From a virus, in the IMG/VR virus record IMGVR_UViG_3300027797_000029, positions 1 through 62,754 of that record: 62,754 bases of DNA; one strand, 5' to 3'. A program made the translations under genes and the position numbers. The notes under the pieces are model-generated. The model was given only the letters and a program-made list of their open reading frames with translations. It was not told the origin of the DNA and made no database searches. Below, piece after piece: positions 29,601 to 45,514 of this stretch (the stretch's first letter is position 1; each line of letters starts with the position of its first letter).

Positions 29601-32600
29601 TTCCAAGTCAGCACAACTAACGGTGGCCCTGTGATATCAACATTATCGGCTGCAACTGGTACAGCAACAGCCAACCAAGGCGTCACTTACTATGTTAAAA
29701 CTATCACAACAAACACCAGTTTTACTGTGTCAAATACATTTGGCGGCACAGCAATTACTGCTGCTGGTTCAGGTACTGTGACAGGTGTGCTTTCATACAA
29801 CGGATTCAAAGCCAAAAGAGATGTTGAGCAAATTTTAAGTGCAGTGGTTTTTGACATAGGACGGGGTGGCAACTTATCCACTACATTGGTGGCAAGATCA
29901 TACTATGCCACAGCAACAACTTACACATCAACTGTGACTTTATATTTGCTGCCTTATTTTGTGTCAGCATTAACATATGCAAGCACATTGACATCTACAA
30001 ATGTGTTGGGACAGTCTGCACCAGCCAACAACTACCAGACATTGAATGGTGTTTCTGCTGCAATCAGTCAGTTTACCAGCGGCAGTTACACAGCTGAAGC
30101 AGGCATGAACACCAAAGCTACCACATTGTTTGCAACTGTGACCAGCGGATTAAACGCTGGCACAACCAATGCTATTCCAGCACCAATAAATCCCACAACT
30201 TCTATCTTTATCAAAACAGGCACATACTCTGAAATATTACCAATCAGTGTGCCAGCATTCACATCACTGATAGGTGACGAACTTAGATCAACAATTATTC
30301 AGCCACTCACATTCAGTGTGACTGCAACCACAAGTTCTGGCACCAGTTTGACATTGTCTGATGCTACTAATGTCACGGTTGGCATGGGTATCAGTGGCAA
30401 TGCATTTATTCCAGATGGTGCGTTTGTTATTGCCAAATCAGGCAATGTGTTAACACTAAGCGCAGCAACCACTGGCACAGTGGTTGGTGCATTGGTAGCA
30501 GGCTACACAGTCAGTGACATGTTCTACATGCGTAACGGTACTGGTGCTAGAAATATGAGTGTTACTGGTTTATTTGGCAAAGTTGGTTCAGCAAACAGCT
30601 ACGGCACAGCACGACCCACAGCAGGCGCATATTTCAGCTTAGATCCAGGCAACGGCCCGGACGACGACACTGTGTGGATTTATTCAAAGAGTCCATATGT
30701 GCAAAACGTTTCACTGTTTGGAACAGGTTGTGTTGGTTGCAAGATTGACGGCAGCTTGCATGCCGGCGGCAACAAATCCATGACACTGAACGACTTTACT
30801 AATATTTTATCAGATGGTATTGCAATTTGGGCCACGCAATTGGCCAAATGCGAAGCTGTGTCTGTGTTCTCGTATTATTGCTATGCAGGATACTTGAGTG
30901 AGTACGGCGGCGCAATTCGAGCCACCAACGGCAACAGTTCTTATGGTACCTACGGTTGTGTGGCAGAAGGAACCAGCCCAACTGAAGTGCCAATCACAGC
31001 CGTGGTCAACACTCAAACCCAAGAGGCACAGGTCACATTTGTTTTGACAGGTGGCGGCCAAATTCTTTGGTTGGAATATTCAAATGCTGGTCAGGCCTAC
31101 AGTTCAGCATCTTACAGCATTACCAGCGGCAGCGGCGGCGGCGCAGCAGTTAGTGCAGCCAACTATTTTACCAATGCAGTAACTGAAGTGCGTATTGTGA
31201 CAGGCGGTGCCAACTACCTAACAGCCACCAATGTGGCTCAGAATGGAACTGCCAGCACTATCACGTTGTCAGCAGCTGATTCAGCAGCCAACAATGCATA
31301 TGTGGGCATGCGCATTGTGTTGCAAGCCGGCACAGGCGCTGGCCAATACGGGTTTATCAATTATTACAACGCCAGTACAAAACAAGTGATTGTGTTAAAA
31401 GAATCTGTTGCAGGAATTGTCACAAGCACTTGTTCAACCACCGTGTTCAACGTTACTGACACTGCAAATATTCCAGCAGGCACACCAGTTGTGTTTACTG
31501 GCACATCGTTTGCTGGTGGATCAATAACAAATAACACTGTGTTTTATGTAGTGGCCAATAACTTTACAGCAACCACATTCTCAGTGGCCACTGCCGCAGG
31601 CGGAACACCTATCACACTCACAGCAGGGTCTGGCACAATGAGTATATTTGTGGCAATGTGGGATGTGGCTGTGAGCGGTACCAGTGTGCAAACAGTGTTG
31701 GACGGCAGCACACGCTATGTTATTGAACCACGAATCACTTTCAGTGGATCAGGCACTGGCGCATTTGCTCGTGCTGTTGTGGCTACCAATCAAATTGCAG
31801 CAATTAGAATTATCAATCCAGGATCAGGATACGGCAGTGCTCCAAGCATAACCATTACTGATCCCAATTCAACCACTGCAGCCACTACCACCGTGCGTGT
31901 ACAACCCACTGGTGTGTTGGGGCAACCCACTTGGGCCAGCAGAGGCACCAATTACAACGAAGCTGCAGTCACAGTAACTGGTAACGGTTTTGCAGATTTC
32001 CAAGCACTGGGATTCTTCATCAACTTGAGTGGCATGACCAAAGTGCCAGTTCCAGGCGCAAACATTGCATTCACAGGCAACTCAACTTATTACATTGTGG
32101 TTCAGGTACTGAGTTACACTGGCAGTGCAGGCAATTACGATGCTAGTATACAGATCAATCCAGGCTTGACTGTGACAGATTCTCCAGTGAACGGAACAGT
32201 TGTTACCATCACCATTGACTACAGTCAAGTTCGGTTAACTGGACATGACTTCTTGTATGTGGGTTCTGGCAACTTCTACAACACTGGTTATCCAAACAAT
32301 TTCAGCACAGCCAACAAAATTGTGGCCAATCAAACTGTTAACAGTGCAGGCGGTCGTGTGTTCTTCACAGCCACTGACCAGGACGGTAACTTCAACGTGG
32401 GTAACTTGTTCACAGTGCAACAGGCCACTGGTATTGCCACACTCAGCGCCAGTTTGTTCAATTTGAGCGGTTTGAATCAACTACAGTTTGCTTCAGGCGG
32501 CGCACTGGTCACACAGTTCAGTACTGATGGCAACATGACTGGAAACAGCGACAGTTTGGTTCCAACACAACGTGCTGTTAGAGCATACATTGCCAGTCAG

Positions 32601-32855
32601 TTGGGTGCAGGCGGCAGCAACATCACAGCCAACAGTTTGACAGCTGGCAGTGTGTACATCAGTGGAACCACTATCACCACAACCAACGCCAACAATTTGA
32701 TAATTACATCCACAGGAACTCAAATTTCTGTGAACAATTTGGCAGTGTTCACAAGAGCGCAAACCGCTACTGTGCCGCTGGTAGCCAATGATTTGACTAA
32801 TAAAGCGTATGTGGACAATGTCAAGAGTTTTGCATTTTTCATTAGTTCTCAGTGA
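26688..32855 (+). CDS. Giant tail fibre/adhesin with eight N-terminal carbohydrate-binding-like repeats
   Basis: A 2055-residue protein, the longest in the window. Residues ~5-520 hold eight units of about 55 residues with the pattern W-G-W...Y..GDIV.YGG..Y.C...HT, resembling small chitin/cellulose-binding modules (CBM5/12 type); the eighth unit is split by a ~70-residue insertion. From ~575 a segment starts (YYVAPSGTDATDYG, PWKTVAYA) as in beta-helix pectate-lyase-like fibres. Two tandem domains follow (VNQPVTFTAGFG... and VNQPIVFSASFG...). The middle region has PTAGAYFSLDPGNGPDDDTV and GCKIDGSLHAGGNKS. The C-terminus (VPLVANDLTNKAYVDNV) is a usual fibre end. Likely a main host-recognition fibre; catalysis cannot be shown. 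Confidence 0.78.
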   Translation: MAEFKLGRLRFVWQGPWVSATNYVKDDIVAYGGKTYVCLVGHTANAVFYTDLNNATAKWSQMSDGVSWKGAWSNTTAFYKINDIVQVGGKDYICLIGHTPTTISPVNQGFYTDLTASKWQLMVDGISWKTTWTTATYYNLGDIVKFGAKEFICVTGHISSSTPNSGFYSDLAALNWQLFVDGQTFIGAWTSTTYYKIGDIVNYGGTSYICNTGHTSSTTLEVNQANWTTFIPGFAWLGTYANGYTYKVNDIVKYGPDAYICTTAYTSVTNTIDLTKWALFVAGLEFMNTYSSATSYALGQVVTYGGYVYTSLVTNNLNQTPSISPSFWSLVTTGFNVQGNWNLTTAYKVGAVVTYGAYVYVSILDGTGFNPANNPTYWSLLNTGVSWQGLWTAGGTFTANIATTNMTVSVVGTTYLRPGVVITGSTTSANTVITGQTSGTTGGVGVYTVNNSQTVGAPGAGQVTLTATSSYRLGDSVVYGPNSYICVAAHTSGYTSPTGPATSSNNRPDVDTAGTYWNTLALGSAANVLTTLGDTVYYSAGGNARLPIGEDGQILRVTGSVPTWNYFGQVANVYYVAPSGTDATDYGITLDKPWKTVAYACARVAQGPANPSAQYLINQNKSWVGAEANNYLAHTNKVSVTGTTAGGAFTTTSTAGLAVNMPIVFNTFGGYLTNITQAYASQNLSVISSSGTLLTVSSNISGVVVNQPVTFTAGFGNVSSGTVYYIQSVAGTQFTISLTPSGTVYTVGGGGSGTAAVQGTFVVDSTVGFTQNVPFQVTGTTFGNLSLATNYFVSNIISGTFVTFSASSGGPVLTNVTPASGTMAVTTNNTLTLAAASLTTAAATIEQTYLAQTLSVLSSAGTTITVSANMVDVSVNQPIVFSASFGTVDAGAIYYVQAVSGTSLTISLNVNGTPYTVGIGNQPCSASVQAMLRATTTSNIRAGSSFTVTGAFGGLNTSTTYYTTQVLSSTLFQVSTTNGGPVISTLSAATGTATANQGVTYYVKTITTNTSFTVSNTFGGTAITAAGSGTVTGVLSYNGFKAKRDVEQILSAVVFDIGRGGNLSTTLVARSYYATATTYTSTVTLYLLPYFVSALTYASTLTSTNVLGQSAPANNYQTLNGVSAAISQFTSGSYTAEAGMNTKATTLFATVTSGLNAGTTNAIPAPINPTTSIFIKTGTYSEILPISVPAFTSLIGDELRSTIIQPLTFSVTATTSSGTSLTLSDATNVTVGMGISGNAFIPDGAFVIAKSGNVLTLSAATTGTVVGALVAGYTVSDMFYMRNGTGARNMSVTGLFGKVGSANSYGTARPTAGAYFSLDPGNGPDDDTVWIYSKSPYVQNVSLFGTGCVGCKIDGSLHAGGNKSMTLNDFTNILSDGIAIWATQLAKCEAVSVFSYYCYAGYLSEYGGAIRATNGNSSYGTYGCVAEGTSPTEVPITAVVNTQTQEAQVTFVLTGGGQILWLEYSNAGQAYSSASYSITSGSGGGAAVSAANYFTNAVTEVRIVTGGANYLTATNVAQNGTASTITLSAADSAANNAYVGMRIVLQAGTGAGQYGFINYYNASTKQVIVLKESVAGIVTSTCSTTVFNVTDTANIPAGTPVVFTGTSFAGGSITNNTVFYVVANNFTATTFSVATAAGGTPITLTAGSGTMSIFVAMWDVAVSGTSVQTVLDGSTRYVIEPRITFSGSGTGAFARAVVATNQIAAIRIINPGSGYGSAPSITITDPNSTTAATTTVRVQPTGVLGQPTWASRGTNYNEAAVTVTGNGFADFQALGFFINLSGMTKVPVPGANIAFTGNSTYYIVVQVLSYTGSAGNYDASIQINPGLTVTDSPVNGTVVTITIDYSQVRLTGHDFLYVGSGNFYNTGYPNNFSTANKIVANQTVNSAGGRVFFTATDQDGNFNVGNLFTVQQATGIATLSASLFNLSGLNQLQFASGGALVTQFSTDGNMTGNSDSLVPTQRAVRAYIASQLGAGGSNITANSLTAGSVYISGTTITTTNANNLIITSTGTQISVNNLAVFTRAQTATVPLVANDLTNKAYVDNVKSFAFFISSQ

Positions 32856-32895: not shown

Positions 32896-33237
32896 ATGGC
32901 AGCAGGAAGATTAGGCACACCGGCAAATTTAGCAGCAGGAACAAACACCACGCTGTACACTAACGCCACCTCATACGCAGTGTGTACAGTGAACATTTTG
33001 AATCGCAACACAACTGCGTTGACAATTCGACTGGGATTGACTTCCACAGGCACGTCAGGCGGCTTTACCGGCGGCGGCGGCACACCAGGACTTGCAGAAT
33101 GGCTGGAGTTTGACACAGTTATCCCAGCCAATGGTGTGTTGGAACGCACTGGATTAGTAGTGGGCGCCACTCAAAATTTGGTTGCTTATGCCAGTGCCAC
33201 TGGTGTCACTGCCATGGTGTACGGAATTGAGACTTAA
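32896..33237 (+). CDS. Small beta-sandwich virion protein
   Basis: A 113-residue protein with the same layout as the 122-residue protein at 18448: AVCTVNILNRNTTALTIRLGL, a Gly-rich turn (FTGGGGTPG), then VIPANGVLERTGLVV and a closing strand. GGAG lies upstream of the ATG. It probably decorates or caps fibres. Function inferred. Confidence 0.6.
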   Translation: MAAGRLGTPANLAAGTNTTLYTNATSYAVCTVNILNRNTTALTIRLGLTSTGTSGGFTGGGGTPGLAEWLEFDTVIPANGVLERTGLVVGATQNLVAYASATGVTAMVYGIET

Positions 33238-33249
33238 TAGGAGCCACTG

Positions 33250-33600
33250 ATGGGACGATTTCTTGGACAAGGCTACGCTAGACAAACACCTGACAGTTTT
33301 GCAGAAACTGTGGATGTCACAACCAATATCACATTGGCGTTGAATTCCATCTATTATGTCAATACCACAGCCGCAATTGTTACACTGACATTGCCACAAT
33401 TGCCCTCAGCTGGTGACTTTGTGGATATCATTGATGCTGCTGGAACATTTGACATATACAATTGTGTTATTATTCCCAGTGGTGACGGATCAACGGTGGC
33501 TGGATTTGCAGACAACCTAACATTGAATCTTAGCCGTTTAAGTGTTCGCTTGCAGTATTCAGTTGGAAGAACCAGCTGGCTAGTAACTCAGCTGATATAA
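33250..33600 (+). CDS. Small virion protein
   Basis: A 116-residue protein: MGRFLGQGYARQTPDSFAET, then a beta domain with LNSIYYVNTTAAIVTLTLPQLPSAGDFV and TSWLVTQLI at the end. The phrase about values that vanish into LPxxPxxGDFV resembles short fibre-end domains of other phages. AGGAG precedes the start closely. The gene lies between the small sandwich protein and the cysteine-rich pair, probably as part of one adhesin operon. Confidence 0.6.
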   Translation: MGRFLGQGYARQTPDSFAETVDVTTNITLALNSIYYVNTTAAIVTLTLPQLPSAGDFVDIIDAAGTFDIYNCVIIPSGDGSTVAGFADNLTLNLSRLSVRLQYSVGRTSWLVTQLI

Positions 33601-33614
33601 GGAATAGATAAAAA

Positions 33615-34694
33615 ATGGCAAACGTATTAAGTTATATTAACACAGGATCAGTTTCAGGACCGACCGCTGGCGGCTTTACTCCTCCGCCAGGCATGTGGTG
33701 TCGACCAGCACACAAACCCACTCAGTGTGTGTTGATAACAGGTGACAACGTATGTTGTTTCTGTGTGCCAACCACAGCTACTTGTTTTGTTATTGAAATG
33801 TGGGGACAAGGCGGTGGCGGTGGCGGTGGTTGCTGTTGCGGTGTTGGATCATATGGAGGCCAAGGTGGGTCATATGGATTTGTTGCTTGCACAATTAGTG
33901 GTCAAAATTGGATTCTATGTGCATGTGTATGCAATTGCAGTTGCACAACTTGCACCATATGCACTGGCTCAATGGGACAGTTTGCCAGAGTTTGTCAGTG
34001 CAATGGTGGTGTAAACGGCACATGGTGGTGCATATGCGGTGGTTGTGAAGGTTACTGGTGTTGTAATCCCAGCGCACCATGGTGTTGGGACGGCGGCCAA
34101 CAAAACCCTGGCGCCTGGCCAACTGGCCAAAAATACAACATGTGGTTGCACTGGAAAGAAAGAAGCGCCTGTTTAGCAGGACGCTGCGGTAGTACTACAG
34201 CTGCGGCGCCCGCAGCTGGATTACCAATGTGTACAAACAGCGGTGTTGCTGGCCAAGCTCCTGTAGCTGCCACATACACCGGATGCACAACAGCAATGCC
34301 AACAAGTCCAACCGCAGGATCGAGCGGCGGCAACATACTAGATATTGTATTTCCAAAGAAAACTTGCGCCTGTTTTCAACCACTGGGTTACATATGGCAA
34401 GGTGCTTGTGGCTTTAGCGATCCAGGATTAGGAAATATGCCTGCTAGTTGTTTGAATACTGGTTACTTTAACAGTTCGATACCAAACTCAGCATGTGGCG
34501 GTGGCATGGGTGTTGGCGGATCAGCTTATGCCGGCGGCGAACAAGCATGGAAAAAATGCGGTTTTGATTGCGGCGGTTGCTGGCCACAAAATGGAAATTT
34601 TCCAGGCGGTGGCGGCATGAGTACTCACTCTTGCTCAGCATGGTCTCATCCAGGGTGCGGCGCAATGGGTTTAATTTTGATGAGTTACTGTTAA
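33615..34694 (+). CDS. Cysteine-rich, glycine-rich adhesin-like protein A
   Basis: A 359-residue protein with about 40 Cys by my count (roughly 11 percent), including CCFC, CCC and CACVCNCSC. The frame of the fold is that of glycine-rich phage fibre tips: CFVIEMWGQGGGGGGG corresponds to the usual VxVWGxGGGGGG strand, followed by YGGQGGSYGFV and an end PGGGG...MGLILMSYC. Cysteines sit where ordinary members have Thr, Val or Gln. There is no signal peptide, so it is made in the reducing cytoplasm; disulfides after lysis, or metal binding, are possible. It is paired with a paralogue nine bases downstream. Probable receptor-binding tip, inferred. Confidence 0.75.
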   Translation: MANVLSYINTGSVSGPTAGGFTPPPGMWCRPAHKPTQCVLITGDNVCCFCVPTTATCFVIEMWGQGGGGGGGCCCGVGSYGGQGGSYGFVACTISGQNWILCACVCNCSCTTCTICTGSMGQFARVCQCNGGVNGTWWCICGGCEGYWCCNPSAPWCWDGGQQNPGAWPTGQKYNMWLHWKERSACLAGRCGSTTAAAPAAGLPMCTNSGVAGQAPVAATYTGCTTAMPTSPTAGSSGGNILDIVFPKKTCACFQPLGYIWQGACGFSDPGLGNMPASCLNTGYFNSSIPNSACGGGMGVGGSAYAGGEQAWKKCGFDCGGCWPQNGNFPGGGGMSTHSCSAWSHPGCGAMGLILMSYC

Positions 34695-34703
34695 GGAAAA
34701 ATT

Positions 34704-35708
34704 ATGGCATTAATAACAAGTTTATTCACAGTAGGTACCGCTGGTGCTTCAACAGCCAGAGCCTGGTGTCGTCCTACACATAGAACTAACTGTGCATATG
34801 TGATCGGAGCCAACTCGTGTTGTATTTGTATTCCAGCAAGTGCCACCTGTTATGTAATTGAAATGTGGGGACAAGGTGGTGGTGGTGGTGGCGTTTGCTG
34901 TTGCATGGGTGCGTTGTATGGCGGTCAAGGCGGATCGTATGGATTTGTCACTTGCACAACCAGTGGCCAAGTACACACCATGTGCATGTGTTCGTGTGTG
35001 TGTACATGCGCAAGCTGTGGCACCAGCGGCCACGCGGGCCAACTGTCAGTTGTATGCGACTGCAGCTTGTCCATCAATTGGACAATATCTGGCGATGCAT
35101 GTGGCGGCTGTGCATGTTGCAATGGCATACAAACCATGAGTGCAGGCGGCTGCTCAACCTGCGGTGGATCGTATTCACGCAACCCAGCACATGCCAACAT
35201 GTCCATTAATTGCTGTTGTTTTGGACAGTGGATTGCACAAATTGGTGTTGGGCACACATGTGTTAGTCATTGGACAACAGAAACGTGCAGCACCCGAGAC
35301 ATGTTCCAGTTGGGTGCAAACATGCCGTTTTTACAACGTCAGGGCACCAACGCATATGGTTGCACTTGTGCTTGTTGCACTAGATTTAACTTTTATGTGC
35401 AAGGTGCTTGCGGCTGGAGTGCTCCAGATCTAGTAACCTGGTATGGAAGTGACACTTGCGGCGGACAACTATTTAATAAGCCGACCTGCACTTATTGTGG
35501 TGCTGGCCTATATGGCTCAGGCGGCACTGCTTATGCTGGCGGAGCAGGACAATGTTGTAACTGTGATATGGGTAATTACTACTGGCAAGGTGCGGACGGA
35601 AACTTCCCAGGCGGTGGCGGCAGCAATGCAGGACACATGTACAGCCCGGGATCATGCTGTATTGGATCATGCGGCGGATTTGGACTAATATTGATCAGTT
35701 GGTCTTAA
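34704..35708 (+). CDS. Cysteine-rich, glycine-rich adhesin-like protein B
   Basis: A 334-residue paralogue of protein A with about 43 Cys by my count (near 13 percent). It shares WCRPxH near residue 22, CYVIEMWGQGGGGGG, GGQGGSYGFVTC, a run MCMCSCVCTCASC, then YAGG and GNFPGGGG, and ends GLILISWS. Identity with A is concentrated in the Gly-rich core, and the Cys-rich loops differ, as expected if loops recognise different targets. AAGGAAAA precedes the ATG. It is followed by a His/Cys-containing protein that might assist maturation. Confidence 0.75.
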   Translation: MALITSLFTVGTAGASTARAWCRPTHRTNCAYVIGANSCCICIPASATCYVIEMWGQGGGGGGVCCCMGALYGGQGGSYGFVTCTTSGQVHTMCMCSCVCTCASCGTSGHAGQLSVVCDCSLSINWTISGDACGGCACCNGIQTMSAGGCSTCGGSYSRNPAHANMSINCCCFGQWIAQIGVGHTCVSHWTTETCSTRDMFQLGANMPFLQRQGTNAYGCTCACCTRFNFYVQGACGWSAPDLVTWYGSDTCGGQLFNKPTCTYCGAGLYGSGGTAYAGGAGQCCNCDMGNYYWQGADGNFPGGGGSNAGHMYSPGSCCIGSCGGFGLILISWS

Positions 35709-35746: not shown

Positions 35747-36823
35747 ATGAGATTTACATACCAAGCACCAGTTGAATATAATGATTTAACTAGCGGTTTA
35801 AGAACTGTTGAGAGCAGATATCAAGGCCCGCACGATTTTAAAGTCTATGTTGATAAAGTTACTAGACGAGTTACTCATGGTGTTGAATTTGACCACGACG
35901 GCCACCCAGGAGTACATGCTGGAGACCCAGAAACCCTGCATGATGGTTGTGAGATGCACTATTTACATTCGCATAATCCCAACCACATTTGTTTGATGGC
36001 AATGATAACCAATCATGAAGAACATGAAGCAACCAATGTTGTAGAGGTGGTGTGTGAAAAATACAACATGGTATATCAACGTCATGAACCCATGGATTTA
36101 TTTCATACATTTGATTTTCAAAAATGCACAATTGATGAAAGAGGAGTGGTTACATATGCATGGTGGCAAATGGCTATATCTTGGGAAATGCTAGTTAGTC
36201 AAGGCATTTCCCATAGAGGTGTTATACAAGAACGAATGAAGGGCTACATGTCAGCTGAACGTATGCAAAAAGCTCAATATTGCATAGAAATTATCGACTA
36301 TGTGCTATCAAACGAAATTAGTAAAAAACATCCATGGAAAATAGCATGGCCAGACATCGACACTGTTAGTTTAGATAACTCTATACCAATTGGTCTAGGG
36401 TCTGGTACTCAGAAAAACGAAGATTGGTTGGCAATTGAACTACAACCGTATTATCAAACCAAATACTGGGGAAGTACTCCGCATGAAAAGGCTGACAGAC
36501 CAGTGGGCAGCGGCTTGCTTCGTTCAAAGAACCCAATGTCCCCATCGGAAGCAGCTCTAGTTGAGGGTGCGCTTGTTTACCAAGAATCTCTCTCTTATTG
36601 CTGGTGTGATGAGCGTTTAACCGATGCGCACCCGAGTCACTGTCATAGAGTTGATGAACATGACATAATTCGTCAGCAATTGATTGACAGTAATCCAGAT
36701 ATTGAACTTACTGCACATCTTATACGTACTGCCCACGAACACCACTGCAAAGTGTGTGAAGAAAACGGTGACCCAGTACATCGTAAGTGTATTCCATCGG
36801 ATGATTCAAGTCATACTCATTAA
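35747..36823 (+). CDS. Unknown His/Cys-rich protein after the cysteine-rich adhesins
   Basis: A 358-residue protein not recognised. The N-terminal half is His-rich (EFDHDGHPGVHAGDPETLHD, MHYLHSHNPNHICL, NHEEHEAT). The C-terminus has HEHHCKVCEENGDP...KC, which looks like a small metal site. The middle (YAWWQMAISWEMLVSQGISH) is helical. Unlike its neighbours it is not Thr/Ser-rich and reads like a soluble enzyme or chaperone. Being directly after the two Cys-rich adhesins, a role in their metal loading or folding is a reasonable guess only. CAGGAGA precedes the ATG. Confidence 0.6.
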   Translation: MRFTYQAPVEYNDLTSGLRTVESRYQGPHDFKVYVDKVTRRVTHGVEFDHDGHPGVHAGDPETLHDGCEMHYLHSHNPNHICLMAMITNHEEHEATNVVEVVCEKYNMVYQRHEPMDLFHTFDFQKCTIDERGVVTYAWWQMAISWEMLVSQGISHRGVIQERMKGYMSAERMQKAQYCIEIIDYVLSNEISKKHPWKIAWPDIDTVSLDNSIPIGLGSGTQKNEDWLAIELQPYYQTKYWGSTPHEKADRPVGSGLLRSKNPMSPSEAALVEGALVYQESLSYCWCDERLTDAHPSHCHRVDEHDIIRQQLIDSNPDIELTAHLIRTAHEHHCKVCEENGDPVHRKCIPSDDSSHTH

Positions 36824-36855
36824 TTCAAAATACACACTATAGACTCATAATTGCC

Positions 36856-36884
36856 TTGACTTGTTAGATAAATGCATATATAAT
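36856..36884 (+). promoter_or_regulatory. Near-consensus sigma70-type promoter for the carbamoyltransferase cassette
   Basis: TTGACT (36856-36861), 17 bases, then TATAAT (36879-36884), 24 bases before the ATG at 36909. This host-type promoter differs from the NATAAATA boxes of the virion genes, so the cassette is probably expressed early. Confidence 0.85.
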
Positions 36885-36908
36885 GCTACTAACAGTTGAG
36901 GCATTTTA

Positions 36909-37859
36909 ATGAGTTCAAGACCCAAAGCATTTTTTATCAACGGCGGCGCTGGCCGAGTTATATGTGCAGTTCCTGCATTGGAAAAATATGCAGAAGATCA
37001 TCCAGATGAAAAATTTTTAATAGTGTGTGAAGGCGGCACTGACTTCTTCAAAGCACACCCCAAACTTCATAATCGTGTGTACGATAATTGGCACAAAAAT
37101 CTATTCCACGATAAATTAATTGATATGGATTTGGTAACACCAGAACCGTATAGAGTTTGGGAATATTTCAACCAAAAATGTTCTCTTAGTCAAGCATTTG
37201 ATATTGAAATCAATAACAACGGTGTTAGAGATTTGCCCAGGCCCACACTAAAGTTAACACAAGACGAAATTACCAACGGCAAATTTGGCATAAAAGATGT
37301 AATTTCAAAGACTGGTAAATCTAAAACAATAGTATTCCAGCCGTTTGGCCGCGGCGTAAACATGAAAGGCGATATTGTAACAGACCCATCTGGCCGCAGC
37401 TTTGAATTGGGTAATGTTGTAAATATTATTAATAAGTTACAAAAAGATTTTTCAGTTATTGTTATGACTGAATTACCATTGAATTTTCAAACATTGGGCT
37501 GCAAGGAGCAAGTTGCAGTGCCCGCCAACATTCCTATTCGTCAGTGGGCTGGCATTATTAAAAATGCAGATGTAATACTATCATGCGACAGTGTTTCTCA
37601 ACACATTGCATATGCGCTGAATAAACCAGCTGTAACTGTGGTGGGATCGACATTTCCTATCAATGTATCATATCCTGCTTGTGAAAATATCCGAGTGTTG
37701 GATATGGGGGAAGGAGCTAGAATTTACAGCCCTATACGGATAACTGCAGACGAGTATGCAGACATGAATAATGATGGAATTATGGCAATGAATGATAAAG
37801 TTGAAAACGCTATTGTGGAATCAGTATTCGAGATGTATGATAACTTTGTAAAACAATAA
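36909..37859 (+). CDS. Glycosyltransferase family 9-like (GT-B) protein
   Basis: A 316-residue protein. INGGAGRVICAVPALEKYAE at the N-terminus has the Gly-rich loop and following helix seen in heptosyltransferase-like GT-B enzymes. The C-terminal nucleotide-binding side shows WAGIIKNADVILSCDSVSQH and ALNKPAVTVVGST, the family's best-kept part. The acceptor could be a surface sugar or a modified base; it cannot be read from sequence. First gene behind a consensus promoter and 14 bases upstream of the carbamoyltransferase. Confidence 0.78.
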   Translation: MSSRPKAFFINGGAGRVICAVPALEKYAEDHPDEKFLIVCEGGTDFFKAHPKLHNRVYDNWHKNLFHDKLIDMDLVTPEPYRVWEYFNQKCSLSQAFDIEINNNGVRDLPRPTLKLTQDEITNGKFGIKDVISKTGKSKTIVFQPFGRGVNMKGDIVTDPSGRSFELGNVVNIINKLQKDFSVIVMTELPLNFQTLGCKEQVAVPANIPIRQWAGIIKNADVILSCDSVSQHIAYALNKPAVTVVGSTFPINVSYPACENIRVLDMGEGARIYSPIRITADEYADMNNDGIMAMNDKVENAIVESVFEMYDNFVKQ

Positions 37860-37873
37860 AGGAAAACTAAAAT

Positions 37874-39676
37874 ATGTCAGAAAATAAAAAAAATATTTGG
37901 GTAGCGGGGATAACACGTGGCCATAATGCCGGAGTTTGTTTACTGAAAGACGGAGAAATTGTGTTCAGCATTGAAGAGGAGCGACTTACCCGTCAAAAAT
38001 ACGACGGGGGCCCATTGGCAACCATGCTTAAAATACTTGACTACACACCCAAATTAGACTACCTTGTTATTGCACATACTACTCCTAAAGAAACTGCTGG
38101 TAAAATTGACTTTACTGGTGACGATATGTACACTGGTTTTGCTCGTAAATTGGGATTGATTGATAGAAAAGCGGACAAGTGGAAGCATCCTCAAGTTATT
38201 GATCTCAGCCACATACATCACAAGTTACATGCAGCTTGTGCATTTTATCGATCAGGCTTCGAAGAAGCAGTTTCTGTAATTGTGGACGGCGCTGGCACAT
38301 TTTTAGAACTGGAGTTTCAAGGAGAAAAATTAACCGGCTGGGAAACTGAAAGTATTTTTGATTGTGCATACCCTGCAAATTTTACAACACTATACAAACA
38401 TATTGGAATTAGAGAACCCAAACCGGGCGCAATTATTAAGAATTTCTCTGGAGATCGATATAACGAAAAAACAACTCACGAAGCCAGAATTGGAGATTAT
38501 GCTGGAATTGTTAAAGTTTATGAAGCTGTAACAGAGTATTGTGGATTTAGTGCTATTGAAGCTGGAAAAACTATGGGATTGTTTCCTTACGGAAAACTCA
38601 ACAATGGTATTCCGCCGTTATTCGATACCACAGGGACCCATCCAAACTCTAATCGAAATTTAGTTATTCCGAGATATCCAAATGGTGCAATCATCAACCA
38701 TAGCTTATATAGTTTCTTGGATGAACATAACTCAAATGATCTCTCTGAACTGGAAAATCGTCGTGACCTTGCATACGCATGCCAAACACAGACACAAGAA
38801 CAGGTGTTACAATTAATTTTTAAAGCAGTTGAAATGTCTGGAAAAAATAATGTAGTGTTAAGTGGTGGATATGGACTTAACTGTGTGGCTAATTATTTTT
38901 ACCTTGACAAATTAAAAGAAAAAGGTATAAATTTATATGTAGAACCTATCAGCAATGATGCTGGAACTGCAATGGGAGCAGCTATGATGATATATCGATC
39001 TGCAGTTAACGATTCTACTATTACTAAATTCAAAGATAATTTATATCTGGGATTACATAAGACGTATACCGACGACGATATCGAATTAACTTGTGCATTA
39101 TTTGATAATGCCGAATTTATAAATGCAACACATAAAGATGTTGTTGATTTATTACGCAATAAAAATATTGTGGCCGTATTCCAAGGACGCAGTGAAAACG
39201 GGCCCAGAGCGTTGGGCAATCGTAGTATTTTATTTGATCCTACAGTGTTGGATGGCAAAGATTTTGTCAATAGTGTAAAACATCGAGAATATTTTAGACC
39301 GTTTGCTGGAACAATCCTTAAAGAACATGCGCACGATTGGTTTGATTTGCGAGGCATGGAAGAAAGTCCCAGTATGATGTATGCTGTTAATTGTCAACCC
39401 GGAATTGCTGAAAAAATACCCAGTATTATTCACGTAGATGGCACTTGCCGTATACAAACAGTTACTGCAGAACAAAATAAACATTTTTATGATTTAATTA
39501 GTGAATTTTACAAAGAATCAGGAGTACCAATTTTGTTTAATACCAGTTTTAACTTGGGCGGAGACCCGTTGGTTGAAACATTAGAAGACGCATTAGACAC
39601 ACTTGCAAGAAGCGAAATTGAATACTTGTATCTACCAGAAAATAAAAAATTAATTAGAATTCTTAATCAAGAATAA
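37874..39676 (+). CDS. Carbamoyltransferase, NodU/CmcH/TobZ family
   Basis: A 600-residue, full-length two-domain enzyme. The N-terminal Kae1-like domain starts IWVAGITRGHNAGVCLLKDG with SIEEERLTRQKYDGG; HIHHKLHAACAFY provides metal-binding His, and VVDGAGTFLEL follows. The C-terminal YrdC-like domain shows GRSENGPRALGNRSILFDP and YFRPFAGTIL. Such enzymes move a carbamoyl group from carbamoyl phosphate, via carbamoyl-AMP, to a hydroxyl on a sugar, antibiotic or nucleoside. Related phage enzymes are linked to carbamoyloxymethyl-cytosine in DNA. The substrate here is unknown. The gene stops two bases before the first nitrilase gene. Confidence 0.92.
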   Translation: MSENKKNIWVAGITRGHNAGVCLLKDGEIVFSIEEERLTRQKYDGGPLATMLKILDYTPKLDYLVIAHTTPKETAGKIDFTGDDMYTGFARKLGLIDRKADKWKHPQVIDLSHIHHKLHAACAFYRSGFEEAVSVIVDGAGTFLELEFQGEKLTGWETESIFDCAYPANFTTLYKHIGIREPKPGAIIKNFSGDRYNEKTTHEARIGDYAGIVKVYEAVTEYCGFSAIEAGKTMGLFPYGKLNNGIPPLFDTTGTHPNSNRNLVIPRYPNGAIINHSLYSFLDEHNSNDLSELENRRDLAYACQTQTQEQVLQLIFKAVEMSGKNNVVLSGGYGLNCVANYFYLDKLKEKGINLYVEPISNDAGTAMGAAMMIYRSAVNDSTITKFKDNLYLGLHKTYTDDDIELTCALFDNAEFINATHKDVVDLLRNKNIVAVFQGRSENGPRALGNRSILFDPTVLDGKDFVNSVKHREYFRPFAGTILKEHAHDWFDLRGMEESPSMMYAVNCQPGIAEKIPSIIHVDGTCRIQTVTAEQNKHFYDLISEFYKESGVPILFNTSFNLGGDPLVETLEDALDTLARSEIEYLYLPENKKLIRILNQE

Positions 39677-39678
39677 CC

Positions 39679-40518
39679 ATGATAGAAATTTTAAATAAAA
39701 CTATAAGATTTGGTGGAGCACAAATTCCTGTTACCCCCGATATACAAAAAAATATCAAATCTATTAAAAAAGCAATCGATTGGGCTGCAGAAAACAAAGT
39801 GGATTACCTAGTAACTCCTGAGGCATCACTTAGTGGATACTCTACAACTTGGTGTGACAATGTTGCAGTTCTGGCAGATTCTCTTAAAGAGATCGAAGTA
39901 TATGCTGCATTAATGAACGTTGGATTGTGTTTAGGCACACTATGGATAGAATCTGAATATGAAAAAGACAATACGTTAAAAGAAATTAAACGAAATCAAC
40001 TGAGATTTTATACAGCAGACGGAAAGTTTATTGGTGTAATTAACAAAACTGTTACAACTCCTCACGATCAGTTGCTTGGATTGGTAGATAGCGTAAACTT
40101 AACAGGAATATTATTAACTTTTGAAAAAATACATATACCAATAGCAGCATTTATATGTGCTGATTTGTATGGTTTAAATAGCGGCCGTGGCGGACTCCCA
40201 GAACAATTATATGATTCCGGAGCCAAGTTATTTTTACATCCTACCAATGCCGAACGAGGATTAGATCCTTTAAGAGATGAAATAGAAGAAATGTGGATAG
40301 AATCGTGGATTAGACGTGTATCATTTAAGCTACGGCCGATAATTTCTGTAGATAATTCTTGTACAATGACCGGTGAGCATTATGATGGAAAAACCATGAC
40401 TCAAAGCGGAGTATGTGCTGGTGGCGTATGGGTTAATACAGTTCCAAGACTTGGTGAACAATATTTTTATCACGATTTTGTATTAAACGATCTTATTTTA
40501 GAAAGAAATCCTTATTAA
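39679..40518 (+). CDS. Nitrilase-superfamily (CN hydrolase) protein, copy 1
   Basis: A 279-residue protein with the complete Glu-Lys-Cys triad of the nitrilase fold: PEASLSGY (E48), INKTV (K123) and FICADLYG (C160). Family members hydrolyse or form C-N bonds (amides, nitriles, N-carbamoyl groups). The location right after a carbamoyltransferase suggests a carbamoyl- or amide-containing substrate. First of three tandem paralogues; the first ~55 residues are almost identical to copies 2 and 3. Confidence 0.88.
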   Translation: MIEILNKTIRFGGAQIPVTPDIQKNIKSIKKAIDWAAENKVDYLVTPEASLSGYSTTWCDNVAVLADSLKEIEVYAALMNVGLCLGTLWIESEYEKDNTLKEIKRNQLRFYTADGKFIGVINKTVTTPHDQLLGLVDSVNLTGILLTFEKIHIPIAAFICADLYGLNSGRGGLPEQLYDSGAKLFLHPTNAERGLDPLRDEIEEMWIESWIRRVSFKLRPIISVDNSCTMTGEHYDGKTMTQSGVCAGGVWVNTVPRLGEQYFYHDFVLNDLILERNPY

Positions 40519-41514
40519 TTAAAAATAATATGAAAATAATAAAAACTATAAGATTTGGAGTGGCGCAGATTCCTGTCACCCCGTTCCAACAACGAAATAT
40601 TGAAACTATTAAAAAAGCAATCGATTGGGCTGCAGAGAACAAGGTGGATTACCTAGTAACTCCTGAGGCATCACTCAGTGGGTATTCTACAAGCTACTAT
40701 AGAGATTTAGAGTTTTTAAATAGTGGGTTACATGAAATAGAAATGTACGCAATATCAAAAAATGTTGGATTATGTTTGGGCACACTGTGGGTAGAGTATA
40801 ACGAACCAGGACACGAGCAGAAACTTGTAAAAAGAAATCAAATTAGATTTTATACAAAAGAAGGTAGATTTTTAGGTTCGACCAATAAACAAGTATTAAC
40901 TCCTTTGGATTTAGAAATTGGCATTGTAAAAGGAGAAGGGTTAGCAGGAGTCCTCATACCGTTTGAAGATAAAGTTATTCCAGTTGCTGGATTAATTTGT
41001 GCAGATTTATACGGACATTTAAGTAATTATGGTGGTCTTCCACAACAGTATTTCACTATGGGTGCAAAATTACTGATACATTCAACTAATGCAGAACGTG
41101 GTTTAGATAAATTCAAAGATAAACTTGAAGAACAGTGGCTTGAAGCAAACATAACTCGAATTTCATATTTGTTATTTCCAGTAATTTCCGCAGATAATTC
41201 TTACACAATGTCCGGAGAGCCTTATACCGGAAAAACTATAACTCAGAGTGGATTTTGCATTGGTGGTAAATGGGTTAATAAAGTTCCAAGAACAGGTACC
41301 CAATATTCGTATCATGATTTTGATATTAAAAAAATAGCAATAGACTTAGCTGATCTTCCTAAATCCAAATTATCATGAAAAATACCATAAGATTTGGAGG
41401 TGCGCAGATTCCTGTTACACCTGACATACAACAGAATATCAAAACTATTAAAACAGCAATAGACTGGGCTGCAGAGAACAAGGTGGATTATCTAGTAACT
41501 CCTGAAGCATCACT
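39772..41514 (+). repeat. Near-identical 59-base block in the three nitrilase genes
   Basis: Blocks at 39772-39830, 40617-40675 and 41456-41514 encode AIDWAAENKVDYLVTPEASL. Copies 1 and 2 differ at two of 59 bases and copies 2 and 3 at about four, while downstream parts of the genes are far more diverged. This uneven identity fits gene conversion or strong selection on the block, and offers sites for recombination that could change copy number. Confidence 0.8.
40530..41378 (+). CDS. Nitrilase-superfamily (CN hydrolase) protein, copy 2
   Basis: A 282-residue tandem paralogue. The triad motifs are intact: PEASLSGY, TNKQV and LICADLYG. It differs from copy 1 mostly after residue 60, in loops that line the active site in this fold (GHLSNYGGLPQQY against GLNSGRGGLPEQL). 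It ends four bases into copy 3 (overlap ATGA), implying coupled translation. Three intact copies suggest hetero-oligomers or three related substrates, rather than decay. Confidence 0.88.
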   Translation: MKIIKTIRFGVAQIPVTPFQQRNIETIKKAIDWAAENKVDYLVTPEASLSGYSTSYYRDLEFLNSGLHEIEMYAISKNVGLCLGTLWVEYNEPGHEQKLVKRNQIRFYTKEGRFLGSTNKQVLTPLDLEIGIVKGEGLAGVLIPFEDKVIPVAGLICADLYGHLSNYGGLPQQYFTMGAKLLIHSTNAERGLDKFKDKLEEQWLEANITRISYLLFPVISADNSYTMSGEPYTGKTITQSGFCIGGKWVNKVPRTGTQYSYHDFDIKKIAIDLADLPKSKLS

Positions 41515-42211
41515 GAGTGGATATTATACAACAGACGACGCTTCTATTAAAAGTGTAGCAACTGCAATGTCCACGATAGAAAAATATGCAGCCAGTAAAA
41601 AAATAGGTCTGTGTCTAGGTACAATATGGGACGAAGCAGAAGTTGATAAAACTGTAAGACGTAATCAGATCAGATTTTACAATCGGAAAGGGTTGCTGTG
41701 CGGCGTTACTAATAAAAGGTATGCCATCGAATTTGATCGAACAATCGGTGTAACGGGCGACAACAATGCAACATTGATACCCTTGCCAATTAAAAATAAA
41801 CTTATACCTGTTGGCGGCCTAATATGTATAGATATGTATGTGTCATCACCTGAGGAAATGACCCCAATTTTGAAATTGAATGCGCAAGGCGCAAAATTAA
41901 TAATACACTCAACTAATGCAGCACGTAATGTGTCAGTAAAAAACAAACCTAGTGTAGAACTAGCAGACAAAATAGCTAATGATTGGCACGATATATGTTT
42001 AAGACGTGCGTCGTTTCTAACAAATCTCCCAATTATAACGGTGGATAATTGTTACATGGCTGACGGTACTGAATATCACGGTCCTACATCTAGTGAAAGC
42101 GGTGTGTTAATTAATGGAGAGTGGGTCACTAAAATACCTAGAACTGGAACTCAGTATTTTTACCACGATTTTAACATTGACGAAGTGGCAATTGATTGGC
42201 CAAAAAACTAA
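41375..42211 (+). CDS. Nitrilase-superfamily (CN hydrolase) protein, copy 3
   Basis: A 278-residue, most diverged paralogue. PEASLSGY, TNKRY and LICIDMY keep the triad, but the segment after the nucleophile Cys (IDMYVSSPEEMTPI) differs from copies 1 and 2 and lacks their Gly-Gly-Leu-Pro loop, so substrate choice may differ. The N-terminal ~55 residues remain nearly identical. The gene ends one base from the stop of the converging HAD gene. Confidence 0.87.
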   Translation: MKNTIRFGGAQIPVTPDIQQNIKTIKTAIDWAAENKVDYLVTPEASLSGYYTTDDASIKSVATAMSTIEKYAASKKIGLCLGTIWDEAEVDKTVRRNQIRFYNRKGLLCGVTNKRYAIEFDRTIGVTGDNNATLIPLPIKNKLIPVGGLICIDMYVSSPEEMTPILKLNAQGAKLIIHSTNAARNVSVKNKPSVELADKIANDWHDICLRRASFLTNLPIITVDNCYMADGTEYHGPTSSESGVLINGEWVTKIPRTGTQYFYHDFNIDEVAIDWPKN

Positions 42212-42212
42212 T

Positions 42213-42842
42213 TTAGTTTAAACTGTCAGCAAATGCCATCAAGCTATCAAATACTTGTGTGCGTTTACGCAAGTTTCGATTAGCAAATGTTTCCAACTTC
42301 TTGCTAGTTTCCACCCATTCACCAGACTTGATCAGCACAGGCTTCGATTTGATATTTTCAGCGGCTTTTAAATCACTGATTTTATCACCCACAAACCAGC
42401 CTTCTTTAAATTTAACATTGTGTTCACGCTCTGCTCGATGAAACATACCAATATTAGGTAACGCAAACATATCTTCTTTCATTTTGCTAGTGGAATAATA
42501 CATGGCGTCTATACTAGGGCACCCTGCTGAACCAAACAGTTCCAGCATATGTTGATTAACCACATCCACTTCAGCGGTGGTCAATCTGCCTTCGCTAATG
42601 CCATATTGGTTGGACAGGATTACAATGCGGTAGCCTTTTTTTCGCATCACTGCCACAGCTTCTGCAGCTCCGGGTATAATTTCAAATTCGTCTGGTTTGG
42701 TCACATGGCTGGTTTTTGCATAGTTGATAACACCGTCACGTGAAATACCAATAACTGGTTTTGTAAACTGAGATGAAAAGTTTGGTATTTTTTGTAAAGA
42801 TGCAATATCAACATCTTTGTCTAGTAGGTTTCGTAGGTTCAT
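42213..42842 (-). CDS. HAD-superfamily (GmhB/HAD-IIIA type) protein lacking the nucleophile Asp
   Basis: A 209-residue protein. The HAD motif I, normally DRDGVIN, reads GISRDGVIN: Ser34 replaces the nucleophilic Asp (codon TCA), and the second Asp36 remains. Motif II is RIVILSNQYGISEG and motif IV is GWFVGDKISDLKAA, both as in histidinol/heptose-bisphosphate phosphatases. An intact frame with this change suggests an inactive or regulatory role, or different chemistry. It converges on the nitrilase cassette and has its own promoter (42860-42888). It could belong to nucleotide-sugar metabolism with the GT9-like enzyme, or be a DNA/RNA end-processing relative. Confidence 0.82.
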   Translation of the reverse strand: MNLRNLLDKDVDIASLQKIPNFSSQFTKPVIGISRDGVINYAKTSHVTKPDEFEIIPGAAEAVAVMRKKGYRIVILSNQYGISEGRLTTAEVDVVNQHMLELFGSAGCPSIDAMYYSTSKMKEDMFALPNIGMFHRAEREHNVKFKEGWFVGDKISDLKAAENIKSKPVLIKSGEWVETSKKLETFANRNLRKRTQVFDSLMAFADSLN

Positions 42843-42967: not shown

Positions 42968-45514
42968 ATGACTCAAATAGCTAATACGTTTTTTACCCGC
43001 GGCAGTAATTCGACGATTCAGCTGGCCCGCGGCACTAATTTATCGTATCAAAGTACCGGTTTAGCCATCTATACTAGTACAGAAATTGACACATGGTACA
43101 TTGGTGACTTTGTATCAGCAGAATATATTATCAATGCTGAATACGGATTAAATGAGCGAGAAACTATCCATGCTACACTGGTAGCAATGCCTGGACAAAG
43201 CAGTATTACCGTGTACGGCAGAACTAGTCTTACTCGCCCACTGATCAATGTTAGATCTTCAGCAACAAATTCGCATGCTGGCTTGATAGTTGAGCCAGCC
43301 AGTTCTATGGTACAGGGCAGCATCATAACACTATTTGCAAACTATGCCAAAACTAGCTTGCCTGTAAAACCTATGAATGCCCCAGCTATTACTGGAGCAT
43401 GCTATTGGAATCATGCATACAATGCAACTACACTGACAATCAACGTTCCGTTATCAACTGTTACTGGCACAATACTTGTTGGACAACGGGTATCCAACAC
43501 ACTTCTTCCAGTAAATGCACTAGTAAAATCGTGGACGCCTGTGTCCAGCACAGCTGGAGTTGGTTCGTTAGTTATAACAGGATTTTTATCAACAACTATT
43601 TTAGCTGGAGTTAATCAGCAATTAACATTTACCACAAGTCCTACTCAATTAAACAATTTGTTAAATGTTATTCAGCCAGTAAGAAGTTTTAGTTCAATAA
43701 TTATACCAGGTCAAAAAACAATTGATGCCAAAGTAGCCGACGATTATTTAAATTTAAAAGCTGAAAACGGTATTAAGATATCATCAAATCAAAGTGACAG
43801 AAGTATTACTATCAAAAATCAAGGCATTACACAAATTTCAGTGTTAGGCCAAAGCGATATTAATCCTGCTATAAATTTAATTAAATCAACTGAAGTTTCC
43901 TTAAACAGCAACGCAACCACCATCCAATTGGGATCTTCAAGACCTACTCAGTCAACAACATGGACACTGACCAACGGCCGTATCACGTTGCAGTCATCTG
44001 GTTTACCTTATCACAGCTATGGCAATTATCCAACTTCCCCAGTTATTCCAATTAATCAAAATTATAATCTAACTTGGACATTAAGGGCAGGAACAAATCA
44101 ACCATCCTTCCCAAATTTTATTAGTTTATCATACACTGCTATAGGATACTGGCTGAACGGTGTGGCCATGTATAGTCCTAAAACAGCAGCCGGTCCCGCC
44201 AATAATAATCCAAATATATATTACCCTCAGTGGGAATACAATACTTCTTATCAATCTGGTATTGACAACGGCTATGTGTTTGGAAACGATCTAGCCGGCG
44301 GCATAACTGATCCTGCTATTACTGGCACATATAATTATAGAGATTTTAAGTTTGGCACAGCATGGACAAACGGATCTGGATACGCCAATGGCGGCACACA
44401 GGGAGGATACCCAACTGGAACGTCTGATGCCACACTAATTCCTTATCTTAACGGAAAGTTGCAACATGAAGACGGTCACAGCAAAATTTTAGGATTTGCA
44501 TTAGACGGATATCCTGTGTACGGACCATACGGCTATACCACGCCTACAGATAACACCAGTACTGTGAAAATAATTACCAGTGGTTATTCGCTTAACACCA
44601 CACGAACAGCAATAATTAGAATTGTTGGCGGATTACCAGTACCTATATTGCCGCCAGTGGGACTAGCAACAGAAGGCAAGTATCCGCTAGGTACATTTGT
44701 TCAAGACTATTCATATGTTGGAGGTGGTGACTTAGATGAGCACAACGGACGATATTGTGTAACACCTGATTATCCTAGTGGAACATATGCTTATTTTACA
44801 ACAGTTGACACCAGTTTAAAACCAACATATCCATATGTAATTGGAAATACATTCTACGGTGTTCCATATACAAATTCAGTAGGTGTTGGATTTGCACCAA
44901 CTAGTATTACATCTGGATCAACCACACTGAATGTGGTTCAGGGCGACCACATAACACTCACAACCAAGTCAACAACTAATCAATTAACTATTACTGCAGA
45001 TGGCCAAACACTCACCACCGACGATGTTGTTACAAAGACACAAACAACCAACATCATAACTGGTGCAAACGGAATTACAACAAGTCAATCAGGTACCAAC
45101 ACGTTGACAATTCGCAACAATGTCAGTGTTTATAACAAATTATATGGTGATACCAACCCAGCTGCTGGATTTTCTTCTGCTACAAGCATTGCCAGCACGT
45201 TCAAAATATTAGGCACTGGCGCCAGTTACTCAGGAACAGCTGGCAGGCAAGCTGGTATCAGCACAATTTTGGTGTCTCAAGATGCCACTCATGGTGACTA
45301 CATACAGTTGCTCAACACTGGAGTTTTAGGTTTAAACAATGGCACTTCGGTTATTACAGGAACAGCTGGCAATTTACAACCAAGCGATATCATAAACACT
45401 GTTAATTCGCAACAACTGGTATTAACAAGTGCTAGTGGTGCGATAACTACAAATCCAGGATTACAACCAGGTTTGGTAATTTCAGCAATGATGTATTTCT
45501 TGTCTGCCGGCTAA
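42968..45514 (+). CDS. Virion protein with a YHYH domain
   Basis: An 848-residue protein. The N-terminal part is beta-rich (TQIANTFFTRGSNSTIQLA). Residues ~460-630 match the YHYH domain style: GHSKILGFALDGYPVYGPYGY, then LDEHNGRYCVTPDYPSGTYAYF (split for reading). That domain occurs in secreted bacterial proteins and in some marine phage virions; its activity is not established. The C-terminal third has short beta repeats and ends PGLVISAMMYFLSAG. Likely a tail fibre or baseplate appendage under a late promoter-like box. Confidence 0.78.
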   Translation: MTQIANTFFTRGSNSTIQLARGTNLSYQSTGLAIYTSTEIDTWYIGDFVSAEYIINAEYGLNERETIHATLVAMPGQSSITVYGRTSLTRPLINVRSSATNSHAGLIVEPASSMVQGSIITLFANYAKTSLPVKPMNAPAITGACYWNHAYNATTLTINVPLSTVTGTILVGQRVSNTLLPVNALVKSWTPVSSTAGVGSLVITGFLSTTILAGVNQQLTFTTSPTQLNNLLNVIQPVRSFSSIIIPGQKTIDAKVADDYLNLKAENGIKISSNQSDRSITIKNQGITQISVLGQSDINPAINLIKSTEVSLNSNATTIQLGSSRPTQSTTWTLTNGRITLQSSGLPYHSYGNYPTSPVIPINQNYNLTWTLRAGTNQPSFPNFISLSYTAIGYWLNGVAMYSPKTAAGPANNNPNIYYPQWEYNTSYQSGIDNGYVFGNDLAGGITDPAITGTYNYRDFKFGTAWTNGSGYANGGTQGGYPTGTSDATLIPYLNGKLQHEDGHSKILGFALDGYPVYGPYGYTTPTDNTSTVKIITSGYSLNTTRTAIIRIVGGLPVPILPPVGLATEGKYPLGTFVQDYSYVGGGDLDEHNGRYCVTPDYPSGTYAYFTTVDTSLKPTYPYVIGNTFYGVPYTNSVGVGFAPTSITSGSTTLNVVQGDHITLTTKSTTNQLTITADGQTLTTDDVVTKTQTTNIITGANGITTSQSGTNTLTIRNNVSVYNKLYGDTNPAAGFSSATSIASTFKILGTGASYSGTAGRQAGISTILVSQDATHGDYIQLLNTGVLGLNNGTSVITGTAGNLQPSDIINTVNSQQLVLTSASGAITTNPGLQPGLVISAMMYFLSAG

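Follow-up and report, generated by a model that had tools for sequence, protein, structure and literature searches.

We analysed a 62,754-base fragment of a virus genome (IMGVR_UViG_3300027797_000029; the whole stretch is called the window below), in which two cysteine-rich proteins (33615..34694 and 34704..35708, both on the + strand) are encoded upstream of a glycosyltransferase of the GT9 fold (36909..37859, +) and a carbamoyltransferase (CT; 37874..39676, +). We propose, with a probability of about 60%, that these genes form a dedicated system in which Cys-rich tail adhesins receive a heptose-type sugar, perhaps at the cysteine sulphur, and the sugar is carbamoylated. This reading is drawn from sequence comparison and structural models. 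The genes, their folds and intact motifs, the linkage of GT9 to CT, the occurrence of Cys-rich tail-like proteins near GT9 in dissimilar phages and of a Cys-rich protein next to it in an archaeon, and the heptose genes were all directly observed. The Cys-rich tail proteins that accompany GT9 had been overlooked in the initial annotation of this DNA.

The two Cys- and Gly-rich proteins, our proposed substrates, have 359 residues with 40 Cys (11%) and 334 residues with 43 Cys (13%), compared with a mean of about 1% in the open reading frames (ORFs) of the window. One gene separates them from GT9, and a tail fibre gene is nearby. We assembled 65 GT9 loci (the window, 43 from IMG/VR, 12 from phage records and 9 from genome contigs), and 47 of them carried an ORF of at least 200 residues with at least 4% Cys. 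Among the 18 loci without such an ORF, eight have no more than 1,270 bases upstream of GT9, and in seven more, where the layout is inverted, the sequence runs on for no more than 3.1 kb downstream; judging from relatives with the same layout, the Cys-rich genes of these truncated loci were probably cut off at the contig ends. The last three fell under the threshold: L040 (713 residues, 3.4%), and L066 and L068 (2.3-2.4%).

In each of nine genomes or contigs examined (the window, S-CAM1, P-SSM2, SBP1, HJ05, K477, G005, G012 and G017; 1.1, 8.1 and 11 kb of sequence were missing from HJ05, G012 and G017, respectively), the ORF with the most Cys lay within 7 kb of GT9. Ranked by Cys fraction, the result was less clear in HJ05, where four ORFs of at least 150 residues scored above the GT9 neighbour, and in K477, where four of at least 200 residues did; of the four higher-scoring HJ05 ORFs, two that were compared with the annotation, at 55 and 17565, run antisense to known genes, and the one at 61010 falls outside any annotated gene. 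Four control phages without a GT9 match (S-PM2, P-SSM4, N4 and HTVC008M, the last scanned minus 7.3 kb) had no ORF of at least 200 residues with 6% Cys. The search was also run in the reverse direction, with a profile of the Cys/Gly-rich proteins. Among the matches listed, at least eight loci were found and GT9 was present in seven of eight: three were GT9 contigs already known, and four of the other five also had GT9, one of them as its first 37 positions only, at a contig end. The lone locus without GT9 among these matches stops inside the Cys-rich gene. A tblastn search with Cys-rich protein 2 gave no match in the phage collection, and it was uninformative, as it also missed known relatives.

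The partner proteins are not all of one family. In Vibrio and Aeromonas phages the Cys-rich neighbours of GT9 are tail-like and unrelated. The neighbour is a tail-tip protein (PF09327) in the Vibrio phage SBP1 and in L189, and the one in HJ05 has a weak tail-fibre PHROG match (2.2e-06). Other examples are a 658-residue protein with 57 Cys in L192 and two proteins with 73 and 31 Cys in AG-345-O18. Cysteine was the sole residue enriched in all of ten partner proteins, 4.8- to 26.4-fold relative to the window ORFs, with Ser at 0.8-1.4 and Thr at 0.5-1.1. Tryptophan was above background in nine of the ten, and tryptophan-halogenase-like genes were seen in the same module of L010, L012, L176 and S-SSM7 (L050, 17164-18651). 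Taken together, the association between GT9 and its proposed substrates is strong.

The 316-residue GT9 protein (phrog_8954) belongs to the GT9 family by its Pfam score (PF01075, 27.4 bits against a cut-off of 22), over residues 200-256 only. Its structure model (predicted local distance difference test score, pLDDT, 90.6) matched best in the PDB a Veillonella GT9 protein (Z 24.2, root-mean-square deviation (rmsd) 3.3, 280 aligned residues), followed by WaaF (Z 21.8, rmsd 3.6, 274 aligned), the protein heptosyltransferase TibC (Z 20.2, rmsd 3.1, 269 aligned) and WaaC (Z 19.9, rmsd 3.7, 256 aligned). The scores for the NCBIfam equivalogs of lipopolysaccharide (LPS) heptosyltransferases I, II and III were far below their cut-offs (17.6-23.2 bits against 134.6-467). 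The catalytic-base Asp in the first Rossmann loop of WaaC and TibC is replaced by Arg (Arg16 in the window) in all 56 unique GT9 proteins that cover this stretch, a count that leaves out two further unique proteins lacking the N-terminus. This Asp is reported to be needed: the D13A change cuts WaaC activity 4688-fold (PMC5713226), and TibC needs Asp110 (PMC4358343). Asp261 of WaaC aligns with an invariant D227 of the phage proteins, and the Lys192 position is Arg in the same alignment. As for the four-Cys iron finger of the bacterial autotransporter heptosyltransferase (BAHT) family, none of the Cys was invariant in 34 aligned GT9 proteins, and only C226 reached 90%. A thiol acceptor may dispense with the Asp base, or an alternative base could come from Glu79-Pro80-Tyr81, which is invariant in the aligned phage proteins. 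Two divergent GT9 paralogues stand on either side of CT in L036, L039, L043 and L170, hinting at a two-sugar glycan.

By tblastn, GT9 was found in 55 of 50,697 public phage records, and a distant Vibrio homologue used as the query also gave 55 records, with identical counts per organism group; the HJ05 protein as query found no relatives in the viral_contigs set. CT follows GT9 in S-CAM1, S-CAM3, S-SSM7, P-SSM2 and Sf-FS3 and is present in 58 of the 65 loci, in agreement with the earlier suggestion that the two belong together. Three of the seven loci without CT are contigs that end 2, 744 and 1108 bases past GT9. The Pfam domains Carbam_trans_N and Carbam_trans_C span the 600-residue CT, which is a NodU/CmcH family member: among 51 unique relatives longer than 450 residues, the HHxxH motif was found in 50 and GPRALGNRS in all. 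PDB matches were 7xb6 (7e-56), GdmN and TobZ, and the score for the NodU equivalog was 132.7 bits against an NCBIfam cut-off of 1000. One or two genes lie between GT9 and CT in some loci; we call them SGNH-like from sequence reading alone, and one tested protein had no Pfam or NCBIfam match.

A sugar-building role, which had been proposed earlier, was supported by the GT9 fold, a neighbouring GmhB-like phosphatase and ADP-heptose genes in relatives. The phosphatase, a 209-residue HAD protein (42213..42842, - strand), had NCBIfam PRK08942 as the best of its 15 matches (1.1e-33), at 116.3 bits against a cut-off of 178, and is thus called GmhB-like only. Near the GT9-CT pair of S-CAM1, S-CAM3, S-SSM7, P-SSM2 and Sf-FS3 we found heptose-type genes, which flank the pair in cyanophages. 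As judged from the P-SSM2 copies, they encode a cytidylyltransferase-like HldE domain, a PfkB kinase, a HAD protein, a cupin and an HldD-type epimerase. The best matches of the P-SSM2 HldE-domain and HldD-type proteins were 1.3e-30, 3.3e-43 and 4.9e-62, with scores under the equivalog cut-offs (106.1/181.5, 148/345 and 209.9/274.6 bits). A nearly complete ADP-heptose-type set was found in L191, where a 1188-residue protein with 131 Cys adjoins GT9, CT, epimerase, GmhB-like, cupin, HldE-like and PfkB genes. SBP1 and HJ05 had no heptose-gene match. The LPS of marine Synechococcus is not known to contain heptose; such a lack would explain both why cyanophages bring the pathway and why SBP1 and HJ05 show no match.

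A copy of the set was found in a contig (L175, 5034-10311) of a Woesearchaeota metagenome-assembled genome (MAG), where a Cys-rich protein (593 residues, 52 Cys, with a hydrophobic N-terminal stretch) is followed by GT9 (35% identity), CT (44%) and a GmhB-like gene (40%). The flanking genes encode enolase, a DKCLD-type pseudouridine synthase and ribosomal protein L10e, with no recognised phage genes, and these housekeeping flanks make the location look chromosomal. The four-gene set appears to have been swapped between viruses and an archaeon. A GT9 search of the archaeal phylum matched three of 371 genomes, with a strong match only in the genome of the query itself, and we read the other eight genome-contig matches as phage-like contigs binned in marine MAGs.

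From sequence and structural models, we infer the substrate, the donor, the linkage and every reaction as follows. An ADP-heptose-type donor would come from host enzymes or from the phage's split HldE, GmhB-like phosphatase and HldD-type epimerase. GT9 would then transfer the heptose-type sugar to the neighbouring Cys-rich tail protein or proteins in the cytoplasm, before assembly, perhaps to cysteine sulphur, and CT would put a carbamoyl group on a sugar hydroxyl. In some phages, nitrilases acting as amidases, an SGNH-like protein, a radical SAM protein, a halogenase and 2-oxoglutarate (2OG) oxygenases may edit the product. The fullest version, in which a virus carries out S-glycosylation by a GT9 that lacks the usual catalytic base and heptosylates tail-adhesin cysteines, with CT carbamoylating the sugars and the cassette held in common with a DPANN archaeon, is one that we put forward only tentatively.

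Several observations weigh against the proposed glycosylation of tail adhesins. Many of the 65 loci are near relatives, so that independent cases are far fewer, and the four loci that lack CT without being truncated next to GT9 are those of N4-like and HJ05 phages. Cys content is milder in L040 (3.4%) and in D505 and K477 (2.3-2.4%, 39-41 Cys). The model of the Cys-rich protein was poor (pLDDT 56.4), so the exposure of its cysteines could not be read from it, and sequence and fold do not discriminate between a protein and a lipid acceptor for GT9. The GmhB-like gene is the only heptose-pathway gene in the window and the one heptose gene found in the 132.9-kb relative G005. The clusters T4-GC 304, 305, 307 and 308 are reported for S-SM2 (PMC3037559), a phage absent from the 14 Synechococcus records that GT9 matched, which indicates that heptose genes also occur without this GT9.

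The initial annotation had placed three nitrilases at the core of the system. Five same-strand genes were indeed recovered from the ORF list and Pfam with the spacing first described (successive gaps of 14, 2 and 11 bases, with the last two genes overlapping by 4): GT9, CT and nitrilase-fold paralogues 1 (39679..40518, +, 279 residues), 2 (40530..41378, +, 282 residues) and 3 (41375..42211, +, 278 residues). All three belong to the nitrilase superfamily (PF00795; CN_hydrolase 27.5, 28.7 and 48.7 bits, cut-off 23.2), and the triad E44, K114 and C151 (paralogue 3 numbering) is invariant in 20 aligned sequences including the three window copies. The core role was not supported. A search of 36 records found a nitrilase in six of 34 that bear GT9, and the nitrilase lies apart from GT9-CT in P-SSM2, L004, L005 and Sf-FS3. 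In the phage collection, nine of 50,697 records matched, representing six viruses, each with a GT9 match; L004 (13 kb) and L005 (93 kb), both fragments, have a nitrilase and no GT9. The five-gene set was rejected as one conserved unit. The conserved unit is GT9 with CT, and the nitrilases are optional.

As to their reaction, our guess is that the nitrilases are amidases that edit the product. The rival for this step, that they are glutaminases releasing ammonia for an amide-forming synthetase, seems rather unlikely to us. Among solved structures, profile comparison places them nearest to glutamine-dependent NAD synthetases (3ilv, 4.3e-07), and in Sf-FS3 a NadE-like gene and a UDP-glucose dehydrogenase share a glycan cluster with the nitrilase; however, the window has no recognised NadE-like synthetase, save a PHROG 'NAD synthetase' label at 3388-3825 where the other matches are homing endonucleases, and the subfamily equivalogs (N-carbamoylputrescine amidase, NAD synthase and Lnt) were not reached (at best 30.3 bits, with a cut-off of 479). 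At the protein level the three paralogues are 49-59% identical. Their DNA (39679-42211) is 73-90% identical over the first 40 codons, nearly identical at codons 21-40 (88-90%) and mostly 40-70% identical past the first 60, a pattern that suggests duplicated genes with either local homogenisation or strong constraint.

The main rival to the adhesin-glycosylation reading as a whole is that the module alters the LPS or surface glycan of the infected cell and so blocks superinfection, its position reflecting a fibre region that gathers host-interaction genes. The GT9 family includes LPS heptosyltransferases, heptose-type genes adjoin GT9-CT, and a change of the host surface is proposed in PMC2984593 and PMC7029224. 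We nevertheless consider this unlikely, because the GT9 of Vibrio and Aeromonas phages lies among tail genes, with no heptose-gene match in SBP1 or HJ05, the archaeal GT9 belongs to a set of four genes, one of which encodes a Cys-rich protein, the catalytic-base Asp is replaced by Arg, and GT9 scores below every LPS heptosyltransferase cut-off (at most 23.2 bits against at least 134.6). A second rival sees in the Cys-rich proteins fibres that bind metal or are joined by disulphides, with GT9-CT merely sharing a gene-exchange hotspot with them. High Cys alone would fit such roles, and the fibre region is variable, with halogenase-like, radical SAM and oxygenase-like genes gained and lost. This is quite improbable given that the GT9-Cys link spans T4-like, N4-like and HJ05-type phages, whose Cys-rich proteins differ in kind, extends to an archaeal contig in which no phage genes were recognised, and was recovered from the Cys-rich side as well. 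The earlier idea that a carbamoylated DNA base or nucleotide is produced as a defence against restriction has in its favour that CT family members carbamoylate varied small molecules, and the PDB relatives of this CT are antibiotic carbamoyltransferases. It was rejected as very improbable, since the PHROG matches across 62.7 kb included no recognised gene for DNA modification, the module is located with fibres and not with replication genes, the fold is GT9, and a review finds no evidence of modified nucleotides in cyanomyoviruses (PMC2984593).

An inverted repeat precedes GT9 (36853..36902, +; 5' arm 36853-36867, 3' arm 36889-36902 with the GT9 ribosome-binding site) and contains a sigma-70-type promoter, TTGACT-17-TATAAT (36856..36884, +), which is the sole strict match on both strands of the window. 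A loose promoter scan of the region gave 41 sites against a shuffle mean of 39.9, and support for the promoter comes therefore from its conservation: L006, L008 and L041 have it ahead of GT9 with identical spacing, whereas L007 does not. The promoter call of the initial annotation was upheld, and the sequence is unlike the T4-type late motif. The RNA hairpin of the window (z -4.81, with none of 200 shuffles as good) was the most stable of 49 gene starts. The z-scores in L006, L008 and L041 were -4.13, -7.62 and -6.58, and L007 lacks the hairpin (-0.36). The stem is kept in the window, L006, L008 and L041, with two-sided changes at four of 14 pairs; the arms were paired by hand, with one bulged base in the window and two mismatches in L006 and one in L041. 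The hairpin would mask the GT9 ribosome-binding site. T4 has genes with masked ribosome sites, and by analogy transcripts reading through from upstream would stay silent, and those begun at the internal promoter would be translated; alternatively, the inverted repeat is a DNA operator. In L045, upstream of 7995, the analogous 5' arm carries TATAAATA, which resembles a T4 late promoter. In the window, TATAAATA occurs only twice, at 6486 (+) and 5354 (-), about 20-30 bases ahead of the genes that begin at 6517 and 5332, a distance that would suit T4-type late promoters.

The fragment comes from a T4-like myovirus, and the module lies inside a late virion region, as first stated, with PHROG matches to portal, head protein, tail sheath, tail tube and gp13-type genes. 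Upstream are a 2055-residue long tail fibre protein (26688..32855, +; phrog_9851, 3.8e-159), whose homologue adjoins the Cys-rich genes in many relatives, and two small conserved proteins of the fibre module recognised by comparison of relatives (32896..33237, + and 33250..33600, +), the second tail-like by PHROG matches. Between the Cys-rich genes and GT9 is a conserved companion of 358 residues (35747..36823, +), whose position is kept in relatives and which is possibly a chaperone, though this is a guess. A YHYH-domain virion protein (42968..45514, +; Pfam 8.1e-30) follows the module and comes after GT9-CT in many relatives. Two near-identical contigs, L001 and L002, have a third nitrilase that is 100% identical. 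In L007, a radical SAM/SPASM protein (Pfam; 6974-7990) adjoins the GmhB-like gene just upstream of GT9 and may modify Cys-rich proteins, and 2OG-Fe(II) oxygenase-like genes stand beside GT9-CT in L050, L052, L168, L173 and L010-L013.

The use of heptose and other sugar genes in T4-like phages of marine cyanobacteria has long been open; PMC3037559 asks whether they are functional or stuffer DNA. The Cys-rich tail link offers these genes a concrete, testable virion substrate. If true, phages decorate their own adhesins, which bears on host recognition, and protein heptosylation extends to viruses, perhaps to a sulphur linkage; a GT9 family without the proposed catalytic base is also relevant to acceptor choice by glycosyltransferases. 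Of the open-licence PMC papers found, as judged by title and abstract opening, a scope outside which most subscription papers and bioRxiv fall, none connects heptosyltransferase or carbamoyltransferase genes of phages with Cys-rich tail proteins.

Among the closest known systems are the BAHT enzymes TibC and AAH (PMC4358343), which share with the phage enzyme the GT9 fold (TibC Z 20.2), a dedicated enzyme encoded with a surface adhesin and the proposed ADP-heptose donor. The phage GT9 differs in having Arg for the catalytic Asp and lacking the four invariant iron-finger Cys, in a proposed substrate that is Cys-rich and virion-borne, and in its pairing with a carbamoyltransferase. It resembles WaaC and WaaF in fold and in the counterpart of WaaC Asp261, the invariant D227 (PMC5713226 for WaaC), and departs from them by Arg at D13, Arg at the Lys192 position and scores far under the equivalog cut-offs. 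The phage CT has both domains and the GPRALGNRS motif of the O-carbamoyltransferases NodU, TobZ and GdmN, yet is encoded in a tail module with GT9. The glycocin S-glycosyltransferases, which put sugar on cysteine sulphur, include GT2 enzymes acting on small peptides, whereas the phage enzyme is a GT9 with tail proteins as candidate substrates and a Cys-sulphur linkage that is only proposed. Finally, the cyanophage 'LPS gene clusters' (PMC3037559) have genes in common with the system described here, T4-GC 303-308 being annotated in P-SSM2; the difference is that these genes are tied here to Cys-rich tail proteins.

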